IMG/VR virus record: IMGVR_UViG_3300019124_000016
Location: 1-40,761 of that record
From: a virus
DNA length: 40,761 nucleotides
Direction: 5' to 3' (one strand)
Below, piece by piece: positions 19,294 through 38,955 of the stretch; within the stretch, counting starts at the first letter, position 1; each line of letters opens with the position of its first letter. The translations under genes were made by a program, and so were the position numbers. The notes beneath the pieces are model-generated. The model was not told where the DNA came from and made no database searches. It saw nothing but the letters and a program-made list of their open reading frames with translations.

Positions 19294-19713
19294 TTACTGT
19301 CGGTGTTCTCTCTCTTGGCACGCCTGAAGGGCAGCCCTTAGTTCGTCTGCTCTGGCAGCAAGCCGTTCAAGAAACGCTGCATCTCGTCCTGAAAGCTCTC
19401 TCCCAGTGGAACCTTGGCAGGCGGGGCGGGAGGCTTCGGGCAGACGTTCGGGACGGTTGCGCAGCCGCTCAAGAGCATCATCAAGGCGAGAACGGATGCG
19501 GCGGATCTCAGCGTCTTTCGCATCAGTGATCTCCTGTTGGATGGTGGCCCTGCGCTGCTCGATACGGCGGGCCTCTTGGGTTGCCTCTAGCATCTCCTCA
19601 GTGATCTCCTCACGCTCCTCCGAGGCACCCTTAAGGTACCCAAGGAAGAACAGCGAGGCAGCCACGAGGAGCGCCACTAGCCAGCGCATAGCGGGGGACA
19701 GTAGGAAGCCCAT
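19294..19713 (-). CDS. Rz: i-spanin (Rz-like)
   Basis: This 139-aa inner-membrane spanin subunit has an N-terminal signal anchor (about residues 9-26, WLVALLVAASLFFLGYL) and a long Glu/Arg-rich coiled coil. It acts with Rz1 to fuse inner and outer membranes at lysis. The ribosome site is perfect (AAGGAGG six bases before ATG). Its location between scaffold and capsid is unusual, since T7 keeps its spanins beside the terminase genes. Confidence 0.9.
   Translation of the reverse strand: MGFLLSPAMRWLVALLVAASLFFLGYLKGASEEREEITEEMLEATQEARRIEQRRATIQQEITDAKDAEIRRIRSRLDDALERLRNRPERLPEASRPACQGSTGRELSGRDAAFLERLAARADELRAALQACQEREHRQ
19338..19523 (-). CDS. Rz1: o-spanin lipoprotein (Rz1-like), nested in Rz
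   Basis: This 61-aa outer-membrane lipoprotein is encoded in another frame entirely inside Rz. The signal sequence ends in a lipobox (LLSG-C, Cys21), and the mature protein starts Cys-Ala-Thr and is Pro-rich (CPKPPAPPAKVP), the hallmark of Rz1 proteins. AGGAG is seven bases before its ATG. The nested arrangement is the classic embedded spanin pair. Confidence 0.93.
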   Translation of the reverse strand: MRKTLRSAASVLALMMLLSGCATVPNVCPKPPAPPAKVPLGESFQDEMQRFLNGLLPEQTN

Positions 19714-26193: not shown

Positions 26194-26426
26194 AGCTTTA
26201 GTTCTCGGCGTAACCTCCAGAGCGCCCCCGCCACAGTCTTCCGGGGATTCTGGTAGAGCGGCACACAGGCCCAGCTATAGCGCCGGCGATCCAGCGAGAA
26301 CAGGGTCACGCGATGAACGGCGAGGCCGGTGCGATCCGCACGTACTTCCTCCATGTACCAGCGCGGTCCCTTGGGCACAGCGACAGGCTTCCTAAGGATC
26401 GGATACTTCAATGAGTGTCGGCCCAT
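26190..26426 (-). CDS. Hypothetical basic protein downstream of DNA polymerase
   Basis: This 78-aa basic protein (MGRHSLKYPILRKPVAVPKG...) ends in an Arg-rich helix (VAGALWRLRRELKL). Its ATG lies inside the end of DNA polymerase exon 2 (19-nt overlap) with AAGGA five bases upstream. It starts the ATGA-coupled chain that runs to 22982. No domain is recognised. Confidence 0.68.
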   Translation of the reverse strand: MGRHSLKYPILRKPVAVPKGPRWYMEEVRADRTGLAVHRVTLFSLDRRRYSWACVPLYQNPRKTVAGALWRLRRELKL

Positions 26427-26894
26427 GTCTTTCCTTGTTTGGCCTCGCCATCAAGGCGACACCTGAAGTTGAATATCTCCCCGGCTTTCGTGACCATCGC
26501 CTTAGCGACCTCAGCCACCGTGTCAGCGATCTCTTGGGTACGGCAGGCCCATTGGCCCTCATCGTGACTCCATGCCATGAGGCAGTAGTCACCATCCCAG
26601 CCATGCTTGAGTCCCCGGGCCTGGAGTTCGTCCTCCACCAGGGTCATCCACAGCTTGCACACGAGAGCCCCTGCGGATTGCAGTAGGGTGTTCAGTGCGG
26701 AGTGGCTGGAGCGGATGTGAACGAGACGGCCATCGAGTCCCCTTAGGCACCCATCAATCTTGGCCTTGGCCTGCACTGCATCCTTCAAATGCTTCAGTGC
26801 AGGGAGACCCTTCAGGAACTTCGCCTTGAGGCGCTTGCCATCGTCGGCAGTTCCGTTGACGATCAGGCCGATCTTGGCGTCACCGGCCCCATAT
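26408..26894 (-). CDS. DNA polymerase, exon 2 (C-terminal fingers and palm)
   Basis: This exon encodes about 162 residues that align with the C-terminal end of T7 gp5: YGAGDAKIG, GLDGRLVHIRSSHSALNTLL, GLKHGWDGDYCLMAW, the motif C SHDEGQW with catalytic Asp, and FRCRLDGEAKQGK before the stop. Spliced to exon 1 after the intron G at 26895, the junction codon becomes CTA (Leu) and restores FIYGFL-YGAGD exactly as in T7. The spliced protein would be 624 aa, against 704 for T7. Motif C reads HDEGQ rather than HDEIQ. Confidence 0.93.
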
Positions 26895-27659
26895 CTCGTG
26901 TGTTCAAGGAGTGTCGCTACACACTCCCCCGTCCCGTTGCAGGACTGCCCCACATCACTGTGGGGGACAGACTATATCTTCGCCCACCCGGAAAAGGGTT
27001 TGGGCGGAAAGCGCTTCCACAGTCAATCGCTTACTGTGTACTCCCCGGCGGGATAGTCGTTGCACCTTCCTCAAAACACATACGCACTGGATACCGAACG
27101 CCAACTAGTTCTACTCTTTATCTTGTACAACTGTCGGGGGCCGATTCCGGTTGCTTTCCGTATGCTCTTACTGTCAAGTCCTTGTTGAAGTAATTCACAC
27201 ACCAACCGAACTACAGGTAGTGGTAACTTCGCCCAAGGACACGCCGCACCCACAGGAGACAGCCCACTACGCACTGCGTGTTGGGTGTTTTCCAAAGGTG
27301 TGGACCATTCAAGATTGCACGCTCGATTGTCAAACGTATCGCCTGACAAGTGATTCACCTGTGGCTTAGCGTCAGGATTGCTTATGAATACCTGAGCGAC
27401 TAGTCGGTGGATATAGCACTGCACTGTTTTTCCGCCTTGCCTGAGGCCGACGAATAGGTACTTGCGCGAGGCGCCAGACCTTGCAGGTTTTAATATCTTG
27501 CGTGTTCGTGTAGACAGGATGAGTCCAGCGGGATGTACAAAGTATCCCGGGAATTCTGGATGTTCTAAGGCTTGGCTCAGGATTGTCTCGAATGAGATAT
27601 CCCCTGAGTTCACATTCTCTGCATTAGTTGTTACCAACCAAAGTCCCTGAAGTTAATCG
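26895..27659 (-). other. Group I intron in the DNA polymerase gene
   Basis: A 765-nt insertion splits DNA polymerase inside motif B. Exon 1 ends in U (TTTCCT) and GGGA 13 nt into the intron can pair with it as the P1 guide (U-G at the splice site). The intron ends in G (CACGAG). Conserved core elements are visible on the minus strand: Q-like AATCCTGAGCCAAGCC at 27569-27584, R-like GTGCAACGACTATCCC at 27050-27065, and S-like AAGATATAGTCT at 26969-26980. A P8-like hairpin (about 26981-27006) and a P9-like hairpin just before the 3' end are also visible. The insertion site is the one reported for self-splicing IA2 introns of T7-like phages PhiI and W31. Confidence 0.93.
27071..27637 (-). CDS. 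Intron-encoded HNH homing endonuclease
   Basis: This 188-residue frame carries a NUMOD4-like segment (FPGYFVHPAGLILS, about 30-43), an HNH nuclease core (IHRLVAQVFISNP, NHLSGDTFDNRACNLEWST, NTQHAV; about 76-122), and a C-terminal helix-turn-helix-like DNA-binding part (SIRKATGIGPRQLYKIK). It would cut intronless polymerase alleles and spread the intron. The start is uncertain: TTG at 27637 has AGGG upstream, and GTG at about 27613 is possible. Either way the first residues are read through the intron core (P3-P5/Q). It stops 6 nt before the R element. Confidence 0.88.
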   Translation of the reverse strand: MVTTNAENVNSGDISFETILSQALEHPEFPGYFVHPAGLILSTRTRKILKPARSGASRKYLFVGLRQGGKTVQCYIHRLVAQVFISNPDAKPQVNHLSGDTFDNRACNLEWSTPLENTQHAVRSGLSPVGAACPWAKLPLPVVRLVCELLQQGLDSKSIRKATGIGPRQLYKIKSRTSWRSVSSAYVF

Positions 27660-29047
27660 AGGAAACCGTATATAAAAGTTTTCGCGTTCGCTCGGGTCGG
27701 CAGGCCGGCAGCCTTTTGGTTCTCCGTATGGATGTCCCCGTTGAGGAGAACCTCGCCATACTTTCCTTGGTCCCACCTCGCCATGAAGTGGGCAAGGCAT
27801 CGAAGCTCTAGGCCTGAGGCGTCGGCACCGACTTGAATCCAACCTTCAGGGACTCCGAAGAGGGCCCGGCAGTCTTCGCCATAAGGAGAGCCGGAAGCCG
27901 GCACTTGGGAGATGTTTGGTTTTGAGTGGGTTGCCCGCCCAGTAACCGCGCCGTTTGGATTGATCGAGCCATGGATCTTCCCTTTCTTGACCAGCTTCAA
28001 CCAAGCGTTGTCTCCCTCGGATAGTTGGCCGAGGCGCTTAGTCACCATTAGGTACTCCGCGAGAAGAGGCGCTTCCGGGTAAGGAAGGTCCTTCATCACG
28101 TCTTCATCCACCTTAGGCTTGCCGCCATCGGTGAACTCTTCGGGGACCCATCCATGGAGTGCGATGAGTCGGTTGGCGATGTGGTCCCGGGATCTCGGGT
28201 TGAACATCACCGTCTTGGAGCGGGGAACAGGGACGCCCTTCTTGTAGCCCTTGGTCTTGTTGTCTCGGGCAGGGATGAAGTCAGGGAGCTTCACCTCCCA
28301 GGACTGGAAGGTCTGCTTCAGTTGCTCCTCAAGGCGGTCCCTATGGGCAACCAACTTGACCAGCAGTTGGGCTGCCGCTGCCTCATCGAACGGGAAGCCG
28401 TTGCGCTCCATCTGAGCCATGACCCACTGGATCTTGTGTTCGAGGTCAATGGCCTGCTGGCTGTAGTTCTTCCCTAGGCACTTCTCTAGGAGCCTTGCGG
28501 TGACCTCGGTGTCCCTATCGCAATAGTCCAGCATCTCCTGCGTGAACACTGCCCAGACATCGGTGTCGTCCTCCGTCTCCTTCTTGCCGAAGTCGCCCTT
28601 TAGGAGACCCAGACGAACCCCCCAAGCTTCCAGCGAGTGGCGCCCATAGAGAGCCCCGGGGAGCTTTCCCTTCTTCATCAGCCCGAGATCAATCTCCTTG
28701 ATGTGGGACCAGATGAGTCGGGCCATGACCATGGTGTCGAAGGTGCGGGCCTTGTCCACCTTGAACATCCCGGGGAATAGCTTCTCCACCACCGGGTGGT
28801 CGTACTTGATTACGTTGTGACCACCAATGTGGTAGCCCTCTACGTTATGCAGACGGAACAGGAAGGTCAGTCCCTCAAGTACCGTCCCGGCTCTGTTCGT
28901 GGCTGGTTCGTCTGAGTAGCGGTAGACACCGCCTGCATCGTCGTTTGTGTCTGAGAGTCGAATGACCAAACAGTGGATCTTGGTGACCTCATCCAGTAGG
29001 CCGTTCGTCTCCAAGTCCCAAATGGCCCGCTTGATGGTGTCGCTCAT
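27660..29047 (-). CDS. DNA polymerase, exon 1 (exonuclease and first part of polymerase)
   Basis: This exon encodes 462 residues plus two bases of a Leu codon. The proofreading domain shows IWDLETNG (D11, E13), GHNVIKYDH (Exo II region) and YCDRDTEVTARLL (Exo III). The polymerase domain has motif A VGADASGLELRCLAHF (D409) and motif B RANAKTFIYGFL (R452, K456, Y460), where the intron interrupts. Without splicing, translation stops two codons into the intron. A promoter-like motif sits just upstream and AAGAGA precedes the ATG. Family A, T7 gp5 type, probably thioredoxin-dependent as in T7 (inference). Confidence 0.94.
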
Positions 29048-33515: not shown

Positions 33516-36020
33516 TCAGGCAAAGCAAAAGCGCGAGTCAATGACACCCGACAGGTCCAAGTGGCCGGGCTTTGGAAGCTCCGGGAGGTCCCCCACACGC
33601 TCCTCGCTCAACTGCCGCACGATCTCCGCGCGGAACTGCTCAAGGACAGGGACATCGGTGTAAAGCTCAACGAAGGACTCCCGGACGATCCTGAAGAGGT
33701 CTTCAGTCTCAGCCGCAGTGGTCCCAAAGGAGTCGTGGATCATGGCGAATGAGTTGATGCCCGCTTGGTTGGCCCGCACGGTGGTGAGCATCATGTGGGC
33801 GGCATCGCAGCTATGGACGAAGTTCGGGGAGATCCCGTTAGCCTGCTTACGGCTGTCCAGCCTGTCCGTCTTCTCACGCAGGGTCAGGGTGATGCGCCCT
33901 TGGAGGCTGGTGTTGACCCTCCGCTCCTTGGTGTCCCAGTAGGCCTGCATTACGGGGAACCCTACGGGGCTCTGCCAGCGGATCGGAAGACCCTCAGCAG
34001 ACACCATCTGGGCTGCCTTCTGGAGCCACTCCATGGCCTCTACGGACTTCACAAGGGTCTTCGTTACGGCCTCCCAGATGTGCCCTGCCATGAACAGCGA
34101 GGCCTTGTAGCCGTCACCCTCGAAGGGGAACTTACTGCGGTCCACCTCACCATCAGGACCGGCCGCCTTCTTGAATGCTGGGTCGAGGATGTCCTCCATG
34201 AGTTGGTCCTTGAAGCCGTACTGCTTGGAGCCGTAGGCCAGCGTCATGACCGAGCGCTTGCAGGTCTTACGGTCCACACCAAAGGACAACCATTGGCTCG
34301 CCATTACCTGATCCAGGGAAAGCTCGCCATCTGGGGAGGGTCCGGACGCAATTACCCCATTAAGGGACTCGGTGACTTTCCCTGCGACCAATCCATAGAC
34401 ATCCTTGGGCTTCTCTGAGGGGATCAGATTCACCGCAGCCCCGCCAATCTCATCGCGGAGCATGGCGGAGAAATGCTGGAGGCCTGAGCAGCTACCGTCC
34501 AAGGCCACGGCCAGCTTGGAGACAAAGGATTCCCCATGCTCCACATACCCGGCCCACTCAAAGCAGAAGGCCAGGAACTGCCACGGCTTGTCGATCTTCT
34601 GACCGCCAATCTCCGTGTACCAGCCCTTGTTCCCGTGAGGGTCCTTGGCGCAGGCCACGATCTCCTCCTCGTTATCCAATACCCACTGGACCCGCTCCTC
34701 CAGGCTGCACTTGTCATTGCCAGCCACGTTGGCGCCGTGCATAGCCAGCCACTGGGCCCCATATTCCCCCAGAGGTTTCCCATTGGAGAACCTGAGGAGG
34801 GCCTTCATGTGGTCAGGGCCTTGGGGATTGAATGCTGGGACTGCGTAGATGCGGCCACGGAAATCCAGTTGATAGGGAAAATAGATTCGGGGGTATTGAT
34901 TGTAGCGCTGGGCCACGTCCAAGGTGAAAGCCACGGAGATCCGCTTGGAGCGCTCCTCGGTGTTCGCTTGGTACACCTTCGCGGCACGCTTACGCCACTC
35001 CTTACGGGACTCCTCGTTGGTTTCAATATCGAAGGGCTTGGGCGGAATCTCTTGACCCAGCCGGGCAGGCAGGCCAGCGACATCATTCCCACGCTCCCAA
35101 AACTCAGCCAGGACTTCCAGTACCTGGGTATTGATCTGCCATGCGGTCTGCTGGAGGGCATTCACCGCTGCATAGACCACCGGCATGTCGGTATTGACCA
35201 GTTCCTCGTAGTAGCCCTTGGAGGCCAGCTTGACCAGCCTGAGGGGGCGGATATTGGAGGACAGGTAGCCACCGTCATACGGGTTCGTCCAGTTCCTCGG
35301 CTGGACCACCATAGGCTCATATACCGGCCGCAGGGTGGCCGTGAGTTGGTGGTTCTCTTCCATCTGGCGGACCAGTTCCTCGGAGGCCACTAGGAACTTC
35401 TGGGTGTTGTTACGGGATACCTGACGGGTCTCCTGCTCAAACCACCCAAGGGATTCAATGGCGAGGTCAATCATCTTCATGCCCACATGCAGGCAATCGA
35501 CCTCCGGCCACTGGTCAAGCTCAATAACGTCATTGACCCGTCGCATGGCATAGACCCGCTTGTAGTGGTCCGATACCCGCTTCTTGGCGCCCAGCATGAT
35601 GCCGTCATAGGTCCGCCGCTCGGAGTCCCTTACGGCTGCCAGACGGACCTCATCCTCGATTGCCGTACCGATCTCCCTGGCTGCCCTTTGGACCATCACG
35701 GGGCTGCTGATGCGGCCCAGGAGCTTCTTCAGGGTCACGTAGGACAGCATCTGGGGGTCCAGGTCCTTGACGTACTTCCAGGCGATGTTTCGGTTACCCG
35801 CACGGCCCACCTTGCAGGCCTCCATCCAGACCGCGATGGCCTCAGCCATGCGGCCGGTGTAGTGCTTCATCAGGGTCTGGGCAGCCTGGAGTTCGTCCTC
35901 ACGGCCCTTCTGCTTGGCATCAGTGACCTCCTTCATGTAGCGGTCAATGCCCTTCTGGGTCATGGCCTCTTCCAGGCGGATCTGAACGTCGATCAGGGTG
36001 TCTTCGGTGTGGTGGGTCAT
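33516..36020 (-). CDS. Single-subunit phage RNA polymerase (T7 gp1-like)
   Basis: This 834-aa enzyme transcribes the phage middle and late genes from its own promoters. Catalytic residues match T7: D508 in LDGSCSGLQHF (T7 D537), K588 and Y596 in KRSVMTLAYGS (T7 K631/Y639), and D763 in IHDSFG (T7 D812). The C-terminus FCFA replaces T7 FAFA. In the specificity loop R701 and N703 match T7 R746 and N748, while T7 Q758 corresponds to T713. This fits the promoter motif seen in the window. AGG lies seven bases before the ATG. Confidence 0.97.
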   Translation of the reverse strand: MTHHTEDTLIDVQIRLEEAMTQKGIDRYMKEVTDAKQKGREDELQAAQTLMKHYTGRMAEAIAVWMEACKVGRAGNRNIAWKYVKDLDPQMLSYVTLKKLLGRISSPVMVQRAAREIGTAIEDEVRLAAVRDSERRTYDGIMLGAKKRVSDHYKRVYAMRRVNDVIELDQWPEVDCLHVGMKMIDLAIESLGWFEQETRQVSRNNTQKFLVASEELVRQMEENHQLTATLRPVYEPMVVQPRNWTNPYDGGYLSSNIRPLRLVKLASKGYYEELVNTDMPVVYAAVNALQQTAWQINTQVLEVLAEFWERGNDVAGLPARLGQEIPPKPFDIETNEESRKEWRKRAAKVYQANTEERSKRISVAFTLDVAQRYNQYPRIYFPYQLDFRGRIYAVPAFNPQGPDHMKALLRFSNGKPLGEYGAQWLAMHGANVAGNDKCSLEERVQWVLDNEEEIVACAKDPHGNKGWYTEIGGQKIDKPWQFLAFCFEWAGYVEHGESFVSKLAVALDGSCSGLQHFSAMLRDEIGGAAVNLIPSEKPKDVYGLVAGKVTESLNGVIASGPSPDGELSLDQVMASQWLSFGVDRKTCKRSVMTLAYGSKQYGFKDQLMEDILDPAFKKAAGPDGEVDRSKFPFEGDGYKASLFMAGHIWEAVTKTLVKSVEAMEWLQKAAQMVSAEGLPIRWQSPVGFPVMQAYWDTKERRVNTSLQGRITLTLREKTDRLDSRKQANGISPNFVHSCDAAHMMLTTVRANQAGINSFAMIHDSFGTTAAETEDLFRIVRESFVELYTDVPVLEQFRAEIVRQLSEERVGDLPELPKPGHLDLSGVIDSRFCFA

Positions 36021-36076: not shown

Positions 36077-36592
36077 CTAGGGGGCAATCTTCTTCAGGCC
36101 CATTTCGACCATCCAAAGGGCCGTCTTCCGGAGTTCCGGGTTGGCCCGCTCCATGGCGATCAGCAGGGCCTGCTTCTCTGCGAGGTAGGTCCGGGCGAAC
36201 TTCGGGTCATGCTCAACGATGCTTGATGTGTTGTCGATCAGGTCGGCCACCTTGATGGTCTGGGCTGACGCGGGCGACTCCTTCAGGCGCTCTAGGGCAG
36301 CAGCCTTTCGGGTGGCTCGGTTCCCGGTGATGCTGGCGTCGTCGGTTAGGCAGGCCACCAGCTTGGCAACCTGAGGACCGAACTCATACCGGACCATCTC
36401 GATGGGGACTCCGGTGTCTTCCACCACATCATGCAGGAGGGCAGCCGCAACCATCTCTTCGGTCCCATGGACCCTCCGGACGGTCTCAGCCACAGCGACC
36501 GGGTGTGTGATGTAGGGGGCGCCTGTGTACTTCCGCTGCTGGGCTCCATGGGCCTTGGCAGCAAACACTAGGGCCTGGGTATAGAGGTTCAT
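36077..36592 (-). CDS. SpoT/MESH1-like HD-domain hydrolase
   Basis: This 171-aa protein is a stand-alone HD hydrolase of the RelA/SpoT type: YTGAPYITHPVAVAE (H30), ALLHDVVEDTG (H54, D55, E58, D59) and a later IKVADLIDNTSS. The layout matches small alarmone hydrolases such as MESH1. It lacks a synthetase domain, so it probably degrades (p)ppGpp or a related nucleotide. AAGGA is six bases before the ATG. It is the first gene downstream of the promoter-like motif at 36.70 kb and precedes the RNA polymerase, an early position. Confidence 0.85.
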   Translation of the reverse strand: MNLYTQALVFAAKAHGAQQRKYTGAPYITHPVAVAETVRRVHGTEEMVAAALLHDVVEDTGVPIEMVRYEFGPQVAKLVACLTDDASITGNRATRKAAALERLKESPASAQTIKVADLIDNTSSIVEHDPKFARTYLAEKQALLIAMERANPELRKTALWMVEMGLKKIAP

Positions 36593-37084: not shown

Positions 37085-37171
37085 TGGTGCCTCGGGTCGG
37101 ACTCGAACCGACACCCCCTCGCGGGGACTGGATTTTGAGTCCAGCGTGGCTACCGATTACACCACCGAGGC
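37085..37171 (-). tRNA. tRNA-Leu(CAA)
   Basis: The minus strand folds as a full class II tRNA: acceptor GCCTCGG/CCGAGGC, discriminator A and an encoded CCA end. The anticodon stem is CTGGA/TCCAG with loop CTCAAAA (anticodon CAA). The variable arm is CCCC-GCGA-GGGG and the T arm TCGG-TTCGAGT-CCGA. It decodes UUG. It looks intact and functional. It lies between the integrase module and the attP-like region, beside four TGGCAC boxes. Confidence 0.95.
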
Positions 37172-37360
37172 AGGCCCGCTCTGGCCCTGTTGGGCGCCAT
37201 TATGCATGCCTTGAGGAGGCAGCCTACGGAGCGCGTAGAAGTGCTTGAGGGAGTAGTCCACCCAGGCAGCCCGAGCGGTGGCGCCCCGGCCGGTGATGGG
37301 CCAGTTGGTGACCCGCCACTCGCCGTGGTGCATCCAGAAGAGGGGCTTACGCGGGGACAC
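37157..37360 (-). CDS. Small hypothetical protein overlapping the tRNA 5' end
   Basis: This 67-aa frame starts at GTG and reads PLFWMHHGEWRVTNWPI, then ARAAWVDYSLKHFYALRRLP, which looks like real phage protein sequence. It overlaps the upstream gene by 14 nt, but its last codons run 15 nt into the tRNA and no good ribosome site is seen. It may be real with a C-terminus shaped by tRNA capture, or spurious. Confidence 0.45.
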   Translation of the reverse strand: MSPRKPLFWMHHGEWRVTNWPITGRGATARAAWVDYSLKHFYALRRLPPQGMHNGAQQGQSGPASVV

Positions 37361-37547
37361 GGGGACGGCGGAGGTTAAGTTGTACGTTGGTAAGCTGGTG
37401 GTCCCACGAGTGGTAGGCCTGCTTGGGCGTGGAGCCGACCCCGAGGGCCGCCGGAACTGCGCTGATGCACACCCATACAGACCTCCCGATTGCGGGATGC
37501 CACATGAACCTCAAGCGGGGCTTCAAAGGCACCATAGGGGGTCTCAT
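37347..37547 (-). CDS. Small hypothetical protein downstream of integrase
   Basis: This 66-aa protein contains FMWHPAIGRSVWVCI and LGVGSTPKQAYHSWDHQL, a pattern often seen in small phage proteins of proteobacteria. It overlaps the integrase stop by ATGA, so it is translationally coupled. It could be a recombination accessory such as an excisionase, but there is no clear winged-helix signature. Confidence 0.65.
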   Translation of the reverse strand: MRPPMVPLKPRLRFMWHPAIGRSVWVCISAVPAALGVGSTPKQAYHSWDHQLTNVQLNLRRPRVPA

Positions 37548-38581
37548 ACTTCCTCCAATTCGACGCTACGGGCTTCCAGGCGCTTCACCGCGTCACGCAT
37601 AGCACCTGGGACCAAGTGGGCATACCGCATGGTCGTCTGGATCACCTTGTGGCCCATCCAGGCCTGGACTACCGGCAAGGGAACCCCAGCGGCCACCAAG
37701 CGAGTGGCACAGGTGTGCCTCAAGACGTGGACGATGAAGCCAGGGTCATCTTCCTTCTTCAGGATCGCCCTGAGGTCATCCCACTGCTTCCTGAGGGTGC
37801 TATTGGTCAGCGTCGGGAAGACCTTCGCGGAGCCATCCTTGCGGCGCTTCTCAAAGATCGCCTTGACCCTCTCTGTTGCTGGGACCGAACGAGCATCCCC
37901 GTTCTTGGTTTCCCCGGCGTGGGCCATAACATGACCCTTCATGTAGTCCCTGAAGGGGTCCAATCGCAATAGCTCGGTACGGCGAAACCCCGTGTCGATA
38001 CCCACAATAATGAAATCGTGAAGCTCATGGAGACCCATGTGGGCGGTCATCTTGAGCATCTGGGTTTCTTCGGCATCGGAGTACCAGCGAATACGATGCT
38101 GCGATTCCTTGTACCGCTTGGTCCGGGGCAGATGCTCCAGTCCACCAAACTCATGGGCCCTCTTGAGAATCACATTGAGGGCTGAGAGCTTCTTATTGCA
38201 GGTGGACCCACTATTCTCGTGTTCGTCCTGAAGCTCCTCCATCCACTCCACTATCCGGTTGGCAGTAATTGCCGATGTGGGAGTATCTGGACCAAAAAAA
38301 GCCAATAGCTGTCTTGCATTAACCAGCACCTTACGCTCCCCAGGGGTGCCCTTCCAGATGTGCTTATAGGTCTGGTCAAAGGCTTCCTGAAGGGTCCAGC
38401 AAGGGGCAGCCGCAGGGGTATTGGCCTGGGCCACTTCAGAGGCCTTTACAGCCCCTCTACGGGCTTCCTCTTCCTGTTCCCAGGCCGAGGCCTCCGCTTC
38501 AGTATTGAAGGTCTTGCGAACGCGATTAGCTCCAGCCCCGACAGAGGCCATGAACTTGTTGCCCTTCGGATATACCGCCAC
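37544..38581 (-). CDS. int: Tyrosine-family integrase
   Basis: This 345-aa recombinase has an N-terminal arm-binding-type domain, a core-binding helical domain (LQEAFDQTYKHIWKG to LGGLEHLP, about 63-152) and a catalytic domain with TGFRRTELL (R200), HVLRHTCATRL (H285, R288), WMGHK (H311) and the nucleophile Y320 in TTMRYAHL. It would insert the phage at a host tRNA-Leu. GTG start with GGGGG six bases upstream; the MarR-like gene ends just before it. Integrases are rare in classic lytic T7 relatives but known in temperate ones. Confidence 0.95.
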   Translation of the reverse strand: MAVYPKGNKFMASVGAGANRVRKTFNTEAEASAWEQEEEARRGAVKASEVAQANTPAAAPCWTLQEAFDQTYKHIWKGTPGERKVLVNARQLLAFFGPDTPTSAITANRIVEWMEELQDEHENSGSTCNKKLSALNVILKRAHEFGGLEHLPRTKRYKESQHRIRWYSDAEETQMLKMTAHMGLHELHDFIIVGIDTGFRRTELLRLDPFRDYMKGHVMAHAGETKNGDARSVPATERVKAIFEKRRKDGSAKVFPTLTNSTLRKQWDDLRAILKKEDDPGFIVHVLRHTCATRLVAAGVPLPVVQAWMGHKVIQTTMRYAHLVPGAMRDAVKRLEARSVELEEV

Positions 38582-38583
38582 GA

Positions 38584-38955
38584 TTAACCCCCGTTGAGAG
38601 TGCTACGAATCTGGTTGACGATACGGCGACCCTTTGAAGTGGTCCGCAGGACTTTCCTACGGCGCTCCATTGGGTCCACTTGGTCGCTCACTAGCTCATG
38701 CCCGGGGCGACGGTGGCGGTCCATCTCGCCCAGTGCTTGGACATACCGACTGGCCGAGGAGAGGGCAAAGTCACCGAGCTTTGACAGTTCGGTAATCGAG
38801 ATGCCGCTCTCCTTGGTTTCACCGTTGGCGATCATGAGGAAACTGACCGCCTCACCCATAGGCATATCAGGATCGATGGTCCTGAAGATTTCCAGAATCT
38901 GGAGTGCCTTGCTCAGTGCGAGCTTGGTGTCCGGCGTCGTGTCCAGCGTACCCAT
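38584..38955 (-). CDS. MarR-like winged-helix regulator
   Basis: This 123-aa protein has a leading helix, then MGEAVSFLMIANGE, a winged-helix core (GISITELSKLGDFALSSASRYVQALGEMD) and a wing followed by MERRRKVLRTTSKGRRIVNQI, the MarR layout. It immediately precedes the integrase in the same operon, so it may control lysogeny or excision. The ribosome site (TTGGATAAACGA) is weak. DNA target unknown; a palindrome at 39170-39186 is a candidate. Confidence 0.82.
   Translation of the reverse strand: MGTLDTTPDTKLALSKALQILEIFRTIDPDMPMGEAVSFLMIANGETKESGISITELSKLGDFALSSASRYVQALGEMDRHRRPGHELVSDQVDPMERRRKVLRTTSKGRRIVNQIRSTLNGG

Follow-up and report, generated by a model that had tools for sequence, protein, structure and literature searches.

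A predicted mobile group IA2 intron with an HNH endonuclease frame at codon 529 of a T7-like phage DNA polymerase

The DNA polymerase gene on the minus strand of the window, which is the whole stretch of 40,761 nucleotides analysed here, appears to be interrupted by a mobile group IA2 intron carrying an HNH homing endonuclease, inserted after the second base of codon 529 (T7 numbering) in the O-helix of motif B, a reading to which a probability of about 0.93 is given. The T7 residue numbering was set from the known positions of K522, Y526 and D654. The intron is predicted to be self-splicing and is probably capable of homing. It is judged to be a mobile intron of the ordinary kind, in an insertion site that recurs among phages and seems not to have been described before.

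Boundaries of the intron and the restored polymerase

The intron extends on the minus strand from C27659 to its terminal G26895 (26895-27659, 765 nt). Its 5' splice site follows U27660, with which exon 1 ends, and exon 2 begins with A26894; the minus-strand junctions read ...AAAACTTTTATATACGGTTTCCT/CGATTAACTTCAGGGACTTTGG and CTTGAACACACGAG/ATATGGGGCCGGTGACGCC. Exon 1 (27660-29047, minus strand) encodes 463 residues of a T7-like DNA polymerase up to ...AKTFIYGFL and was delimited by its open reading frame, Pfam DNA_pol_A and the splice frame, whereas exon 2 (26408-26894, minus strand), delimited by Pfam and the splice frame, runs from YGAGD to the stop codon. Joining 27660 to 26894 yields an uninterrupted polymerase of 624 residues that contains ...AKTFIYGFLYGAGDAK..., with the insertion at residue 463 in motif B and the HDE of motif C, encoded by exon 2, intact at residue 573, and the two halves are contiguous in the Pfam DNA_pol_A profile (29-216, then 219-381) with nothing lost. 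The coordinates proposed in an earlier note on this DNA are exact to the base, its placement of the insertion in motif B is borne out by the FIYGFL/YGAGD break, and the codon-neutral restoration of the T7-like protein that it described agrees with the exact frame after joining and with the empty sites in relatives. Since exon 1 and the endonuclease share one frame, linkage of the halves by an intein, by programmed frameshifting or by readthrough was also considered, but an in-frame TAA at 27655-27653 closes unspliced exon 1 no more than seven bases into the intron, the endonuclease frame does not cover the 3' part of the intron, which is structured RNA, and no intein domain was found in Pfam; such a linkage was rejected by the stop codons and the exact RNA boundaries and is given next to no credence.

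The polymerases of close relatives are uninterrupted, including that of the closest one, L040 (83% identical protein), whose DNA is contiguous across the empty site when aligned. The only relative of the polymerase in the genome collection, from a Binatia bin (L074), is uninterrupted as well. At least 80% of the 60 residues around the site were covered at one place in 1,820 of the 1,853 matching phage records, a count that includes joined pieces and is therefore an approximate measure of how rare interruption is.

Ribozyme core and endonuclease frame

The predicted RNA displays a P3-P9 core with P4-P6 and P3-P7-P8 domains, a U.G pair at the 5' site and a terminal G. P1 (27644-27663) pairs exon UCCU (27663-27660) with the guide GGGA (27647-27644), ending in the wobble U27660.G27647, and has a homologue in the intron of Proteus phage vB_PMG_YP1 (YP1), while P2 (27624-27641) is the hairpin UUGGUUG-GUAA-CAACUAA seen in the sequence and with RNAfold. 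P3 (27007-27617) joins GAAUGUG (27617-27611) to CGCUUUC (27013-27007) with six of seven positions paired; P4 (27576-27608) joins CUCAGG (27608-27603) to CCUGAG (27581-27576) around P5 (UCUC/GAGA, 27597-27586); and P6 (CC/GG) is continued by P6a, formed by CCUUAGAAC (27570-27562) and GUUUUGAGG (27077-27069), the two together spanning 27065-27575 with a cofold energy of -9.9 kcal/mol. P7 (26970-27058) pairs GACUAU (27058-27053) with AUAGUC (26975-26970) and encloses P7.1 (27052-27043), a GUA linker, P7.2 (27038-27018), the 3' strand of P3 and P8 (27005-26982), followed by P9 (CCCCACA-GUGA-UGUGGGG, 26948-26965) and by P9.1 (26945-26931) and P9.2 (26927-26908), which together occupy 26908-26945 and were drawn from the sequence and RNAfold. 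The intron is assigned to subgroup IA2 because P7.1 and P7.2 are joined by GUA (27052-27018), which is the mark of that subgroup (PMC3428280). No clear P10 was seen by eye in the intron.

No group I match was returned by Rfam at gathering level, and a permissive scan of the region gave RF00028 with 24.4 bits (E 6.8e-4) across 27673-26948, where the gathering score is 50; that score is a curator's cut-off and not a biological feature, and the match includes a long insert for the reading frame. Because this score was below threshold and the RF00028 alignment placed the R element wrongly, inside the reading frame, a covariance model was built on 3' cores taken from ten phage introns, the window's own not among them. 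This held-out model matched 27070-26938 at 90.1 bits (E 4.8e-22), the only match in 40.8 kb, and the 5' half of the core was found by a DNA profile of 5' cores from which the window was likewise left out (E 2.4e-10). Across 11 introns, 97.4% of the cells for 35 pairs of P3, P4, P7, P7.1, P7.2 and P9 were standard, and two-sided changes were observed in 17 of the 35 pairs, a level reached in none of 500 shuffles, with 26-49% paired when the alignment was slid. P3 is the most telling helix for group I identity: the consensus CUGUGUG/CGCACAG is replaced in the window by GAAUGUG/CGCUUUC, so that three pairs differ in both bases and one position is a U.U mismatch, and P4, P7 and P9 are fully paired. 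The earlier note had named a search with group I models as a check on its proposal of a group I intron, and although RF00028 stayed well short of its cut-off, the held-out model and the compensatory changes uphold the proposal; all the features that it listed are present, namely a U preceding the 5' site, a G at the 3' end, a P1 guide and Q-, R- and S-like core elements. Phage genes often have lone HNH genes beside them (PMC3984707), which would suit a free-standing HNH gene inserted without a ribozyme, with the flanking matches arising by chance, but the sole held-out match in the window and the long-range pairing of P3 and P7 with covariation argue against it, and this explanation was rejected on sequence grounds as vanishingly improbable.

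The HNH reading frame (27071-27637, minus strand; 188 residues when counted from TTG27637, the start being uncertain), absent from the earlier note, sits between the strands of P6a and extends upstream through the core. The protein matches HNH_3 in Pfam (2.3e-5; 24.4 bits, slightly below the cut-off of 24.8) and PHROG 59 (1e-35), and a four-member profile of the endonuclease returned I-HmuI (1u3e) as the best solved relative (4e-19). The residues H77, N95, H96, N104 and N108 are conserved, comprising the HNH motif with its catalytic His and Asn, and by these matches the encoded protein is an I-HmuI-like HNH homing endonuclease, predicted to cut or nick the intron-free site. ATG is absent from the window frame, and in both the window and YP1 sequences no ATG, GTG or TTG occurs from the core to the conserved domain; translation should therefore begin at TTG27637 or GTG27613 in the window and at an ATG in YP1, or else at a non-standard codon. 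The possible starts adjoin the guide GGGA on its downstream side in both phages, which raises the suggestion that ribosomes might bind weakly at this guide.

In the proposed mechanism, the pre-mRNA would fold into the P3-P9 core with P1 aligning the end of exon 1, exogenous guanosine would attack after U27660, and G26895 would then be used for exon ligation to give the intact polymerase, whereas in unspliced RNA the ribosomes arriving from exon 1 would halt at UAA 27655-27653 and the endonuclease would be translated from a start near UUG27637. Splicing efficiency could be reduced by the P3 U.U mismatch and by a competing 9-bp helix, GGAAGGUGC/GCGCUUUCC, which RNAfold places in the 3' half of the intron. 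The same two features, together with an in-frame GTG at 26953, would suit a decayed or splicing-poor group I intron in which the polymerase consists of two polypeptides, with exon 2 translated separately from a start such as that GTG; however, P3 is re-paired by its three two-sided changes, P4, P7 and P9 are all paired, and the endonuclease frame remains open and retains its motif, none of which one would expect once the ribozyme had died; moreover, the split would fall within the O-helix. Such a two-polypeptide polymerase is accordingly considered improbable, and a splicing intron is the preferred reading.

Introns at and near codon 529

An intron at exactly the insertion point of the window (TTCCT/, codon 529, phase 2) was detected in YP1 (PV535314, L038), where an unannotated group I intron (L038 2925-3717) splits the polymerase into two halves, both labelled hypothetical proteins. 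The two introns share a homologous core, HNH endonucleases 50.6% identical over 172 residues, and an endonuclease frame that lacks any start codon past the core, but YP1 is an 89-kb phage that is not T7-like, its genes in this region are labelled hypothetical with no intron noted, and the polymerases are distant (33-45% identity over matched pieces). By scanning viral contigs for intron ends joined to YGAGD, the 3' exon junction, eight environmental contigs were found (L174, L176, L178, L181, L182, L185, L186 and L195; seven distinct, L186 and L195 holding one and the same intron) in which a T7-like polymerase is broken between the same two residues as in the window, all with IA2 cores at 92-126 bits. 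TTCCTT gives the best pairing with their guides, which probably puts their splice site 1 nt further downstream than in the window; they also differ from it in their contents, namely an endonuclease VII type in L174, other small frames in L176, L182, L185 and L186, and no frame in L178 (335 nt) and L181 (251 nt). These introns, within 1 nt of the window's site, carry three further endonuclease types or none. The guide GGAGG at the intron starts of L176, L182 and L174, besides being complementary to exon UUCCUU, has the sequence of a perfect ribosome binding site. An exact-pattern scan of viral contigs for the P4-P5 of the window intron gave no match, and protein searches with the HNH frame returned many relatives, none of the new contigs among them having the window's polymerase site. 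No description of codon 529 as an intron site was found in the literature searched, with most subscription papers beyond reach.

In the polymerase tree the window is sister to the empty-site L040 with full support, and occupancy of the site takes 6 changes, at least 5 of them forced by well-supported branches, while the intron core tree is poorly resolved, with support too weak to order the introns. When 9,012 ten-codon windows from the genome's main genes are compared, the one that ends at the splice site is the most atypical of all, which fits a short exon tract brought in with the intron; alternatively, P1 pairing may have imposed selection on the exon. The junction is unexceptional in its divergence from L040 (41 of 543 windows are as low), so that it is codon usage that speaks for a co-conversion tract. 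The endonuclease family, the empty sites and this codon-usage footprint suggest that the endonuclease would nick or cut polymerase alleles that lack the intron, for example the L040 allele, repair then copying the intron with a short exon tract, and the polymerase tree together with the YP1 homologue points to a recent entry of the intron into the window lineage, probably from a distant phage lineage. A broader proposal can be put forward tentatively and with considerable doubt: that codon 529 is a shared landing place, entered several times by introns with at least three unrelated endonuclease types in phages with or without an integrase, and that in the window and YP1 lineage the guide GGGA doubles as a site for ribosome binding and translation covers the 5' half of the ribozyme core, making endonuclease synthesis and splicing mutually exclusive on each RNA.

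Introns in motif B are in general not new. Upstream positions are occupied at F524 in Salmonella phage Vi06, close to F524 in Pectobacterium phage Jarilo, and at Y526 in Bas94, Aeromonas phage MQM1 and Pseudomonas phage TL, the last annotated as similar to LUZ24, a phage whose genome paper has 'intron-containing' in its title. These five are IA2-like as in the window and lie in the same motif a few codons upstream, but they are inserted about 10 to 15 nt away and have other guides and endonucleases. MQM1 (L083 3256-4881) carries a pair of introns in a single polymerase gene, one within motif B and the other ahead of the DE of motif C, which shows these motifs to be separate regions of one gene. 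Site 881 of E. coli Pol I lies at motif C, with His881 preceding Asp882. The introns of PhiI and W31 (Bonocora and Shub 2004), which the earlier note had assigned to the site found here, resemble the window intron in subgroup IA2, an HNH frame in P6a and a T7-like DNA polymerase host gene, but both are reported at Pol I site 881 (PMC3428280), in motif C and thus at another place in the gene. Site 674 is used in SPO1, SP82, Bastille and Pf-WMP3, and 676 in phiL7 (PMC3428280); the introns of I-HmuI, I-BasI and I-PfoP3I (SPO1, Bastille and Pf-WMP3) share with the window subgroup IA2, an HNH endonuclease and a family A polymerase, differing in their position at 674. In Escherichia phage O18-011 (LC553735; L196 2500-2640, L199), a polymerase frame without motif B was observed that shows a handful of intron-like bases where it is broken, and an intron 3' core with a polymerase fragment lies about 63 kb away in the record, an arrangement that may represent rearrangement, misassembly or a split intron.

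Phage context and meaning

The closest phages to the window are Bordetella phage BB8, Limnohabitans phage YIMV22061 and LUZ100. A temperate T7-like gene set is present on the minus strand, with a tyrosine integrase (37544-38581; Pfam, PHROG) near a T7-like RNA polymerase (33516-36020; PHROG), a transcriptional regulator adjoining the integrase (PHROG 9665, 38584-38955) and a candidate attachment tRNA beside it (tRNA-Leu(CAA), 37085-37171), and the phage is likely temperate, its lysogeny being suggested by these genes. LUZ100 has the same elements, an integrase, an adjoining regulator (MarR-like in LUZ100), a tRNA-Leu and a T7-like RNA polymerase, but its paper mentions no intron (PMC10134795). 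The series of tRNA, integrase and regulator at 37085-38955, as in LUZ100, forms a candidate attachment region; an HD-type metal-dependent phosphohydrolase (PHROG 990) lies at 36077-36592 between RNA polymerase and integrase, and a short lipoprotein-like frame (19338-19523) nested in 19294-19713 resembles Rz/Rz1 spanin genes. The integrase-bearing T7-like setting described in the earlier note is supported by the integrase and the RNA polymerase, and the wider range of such introns that it foresaw does follow, but the window is not alone in this, as T7-like contigs L176 and L182 likewise have an intron at codon 529 together with an integrase gene.

Codon 529 joins 674, 676 and 881 and the nearby F524 and Y526 as a place where phage family A polymerases carry introns, and the site given in the earlier note is corrected. 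At least nine distinct phages use this codon, within 1 nt, making it a natural case for studying how unrelated endonucleases have come to share a target in conserved codons. Such polymerases are split by gene callers, and the YP1 copy went unannotated. The finding also places mobile introns in integrase-bearing T7-like phages, in which a lysogen could bring the intron and incoming intron-free phages together.
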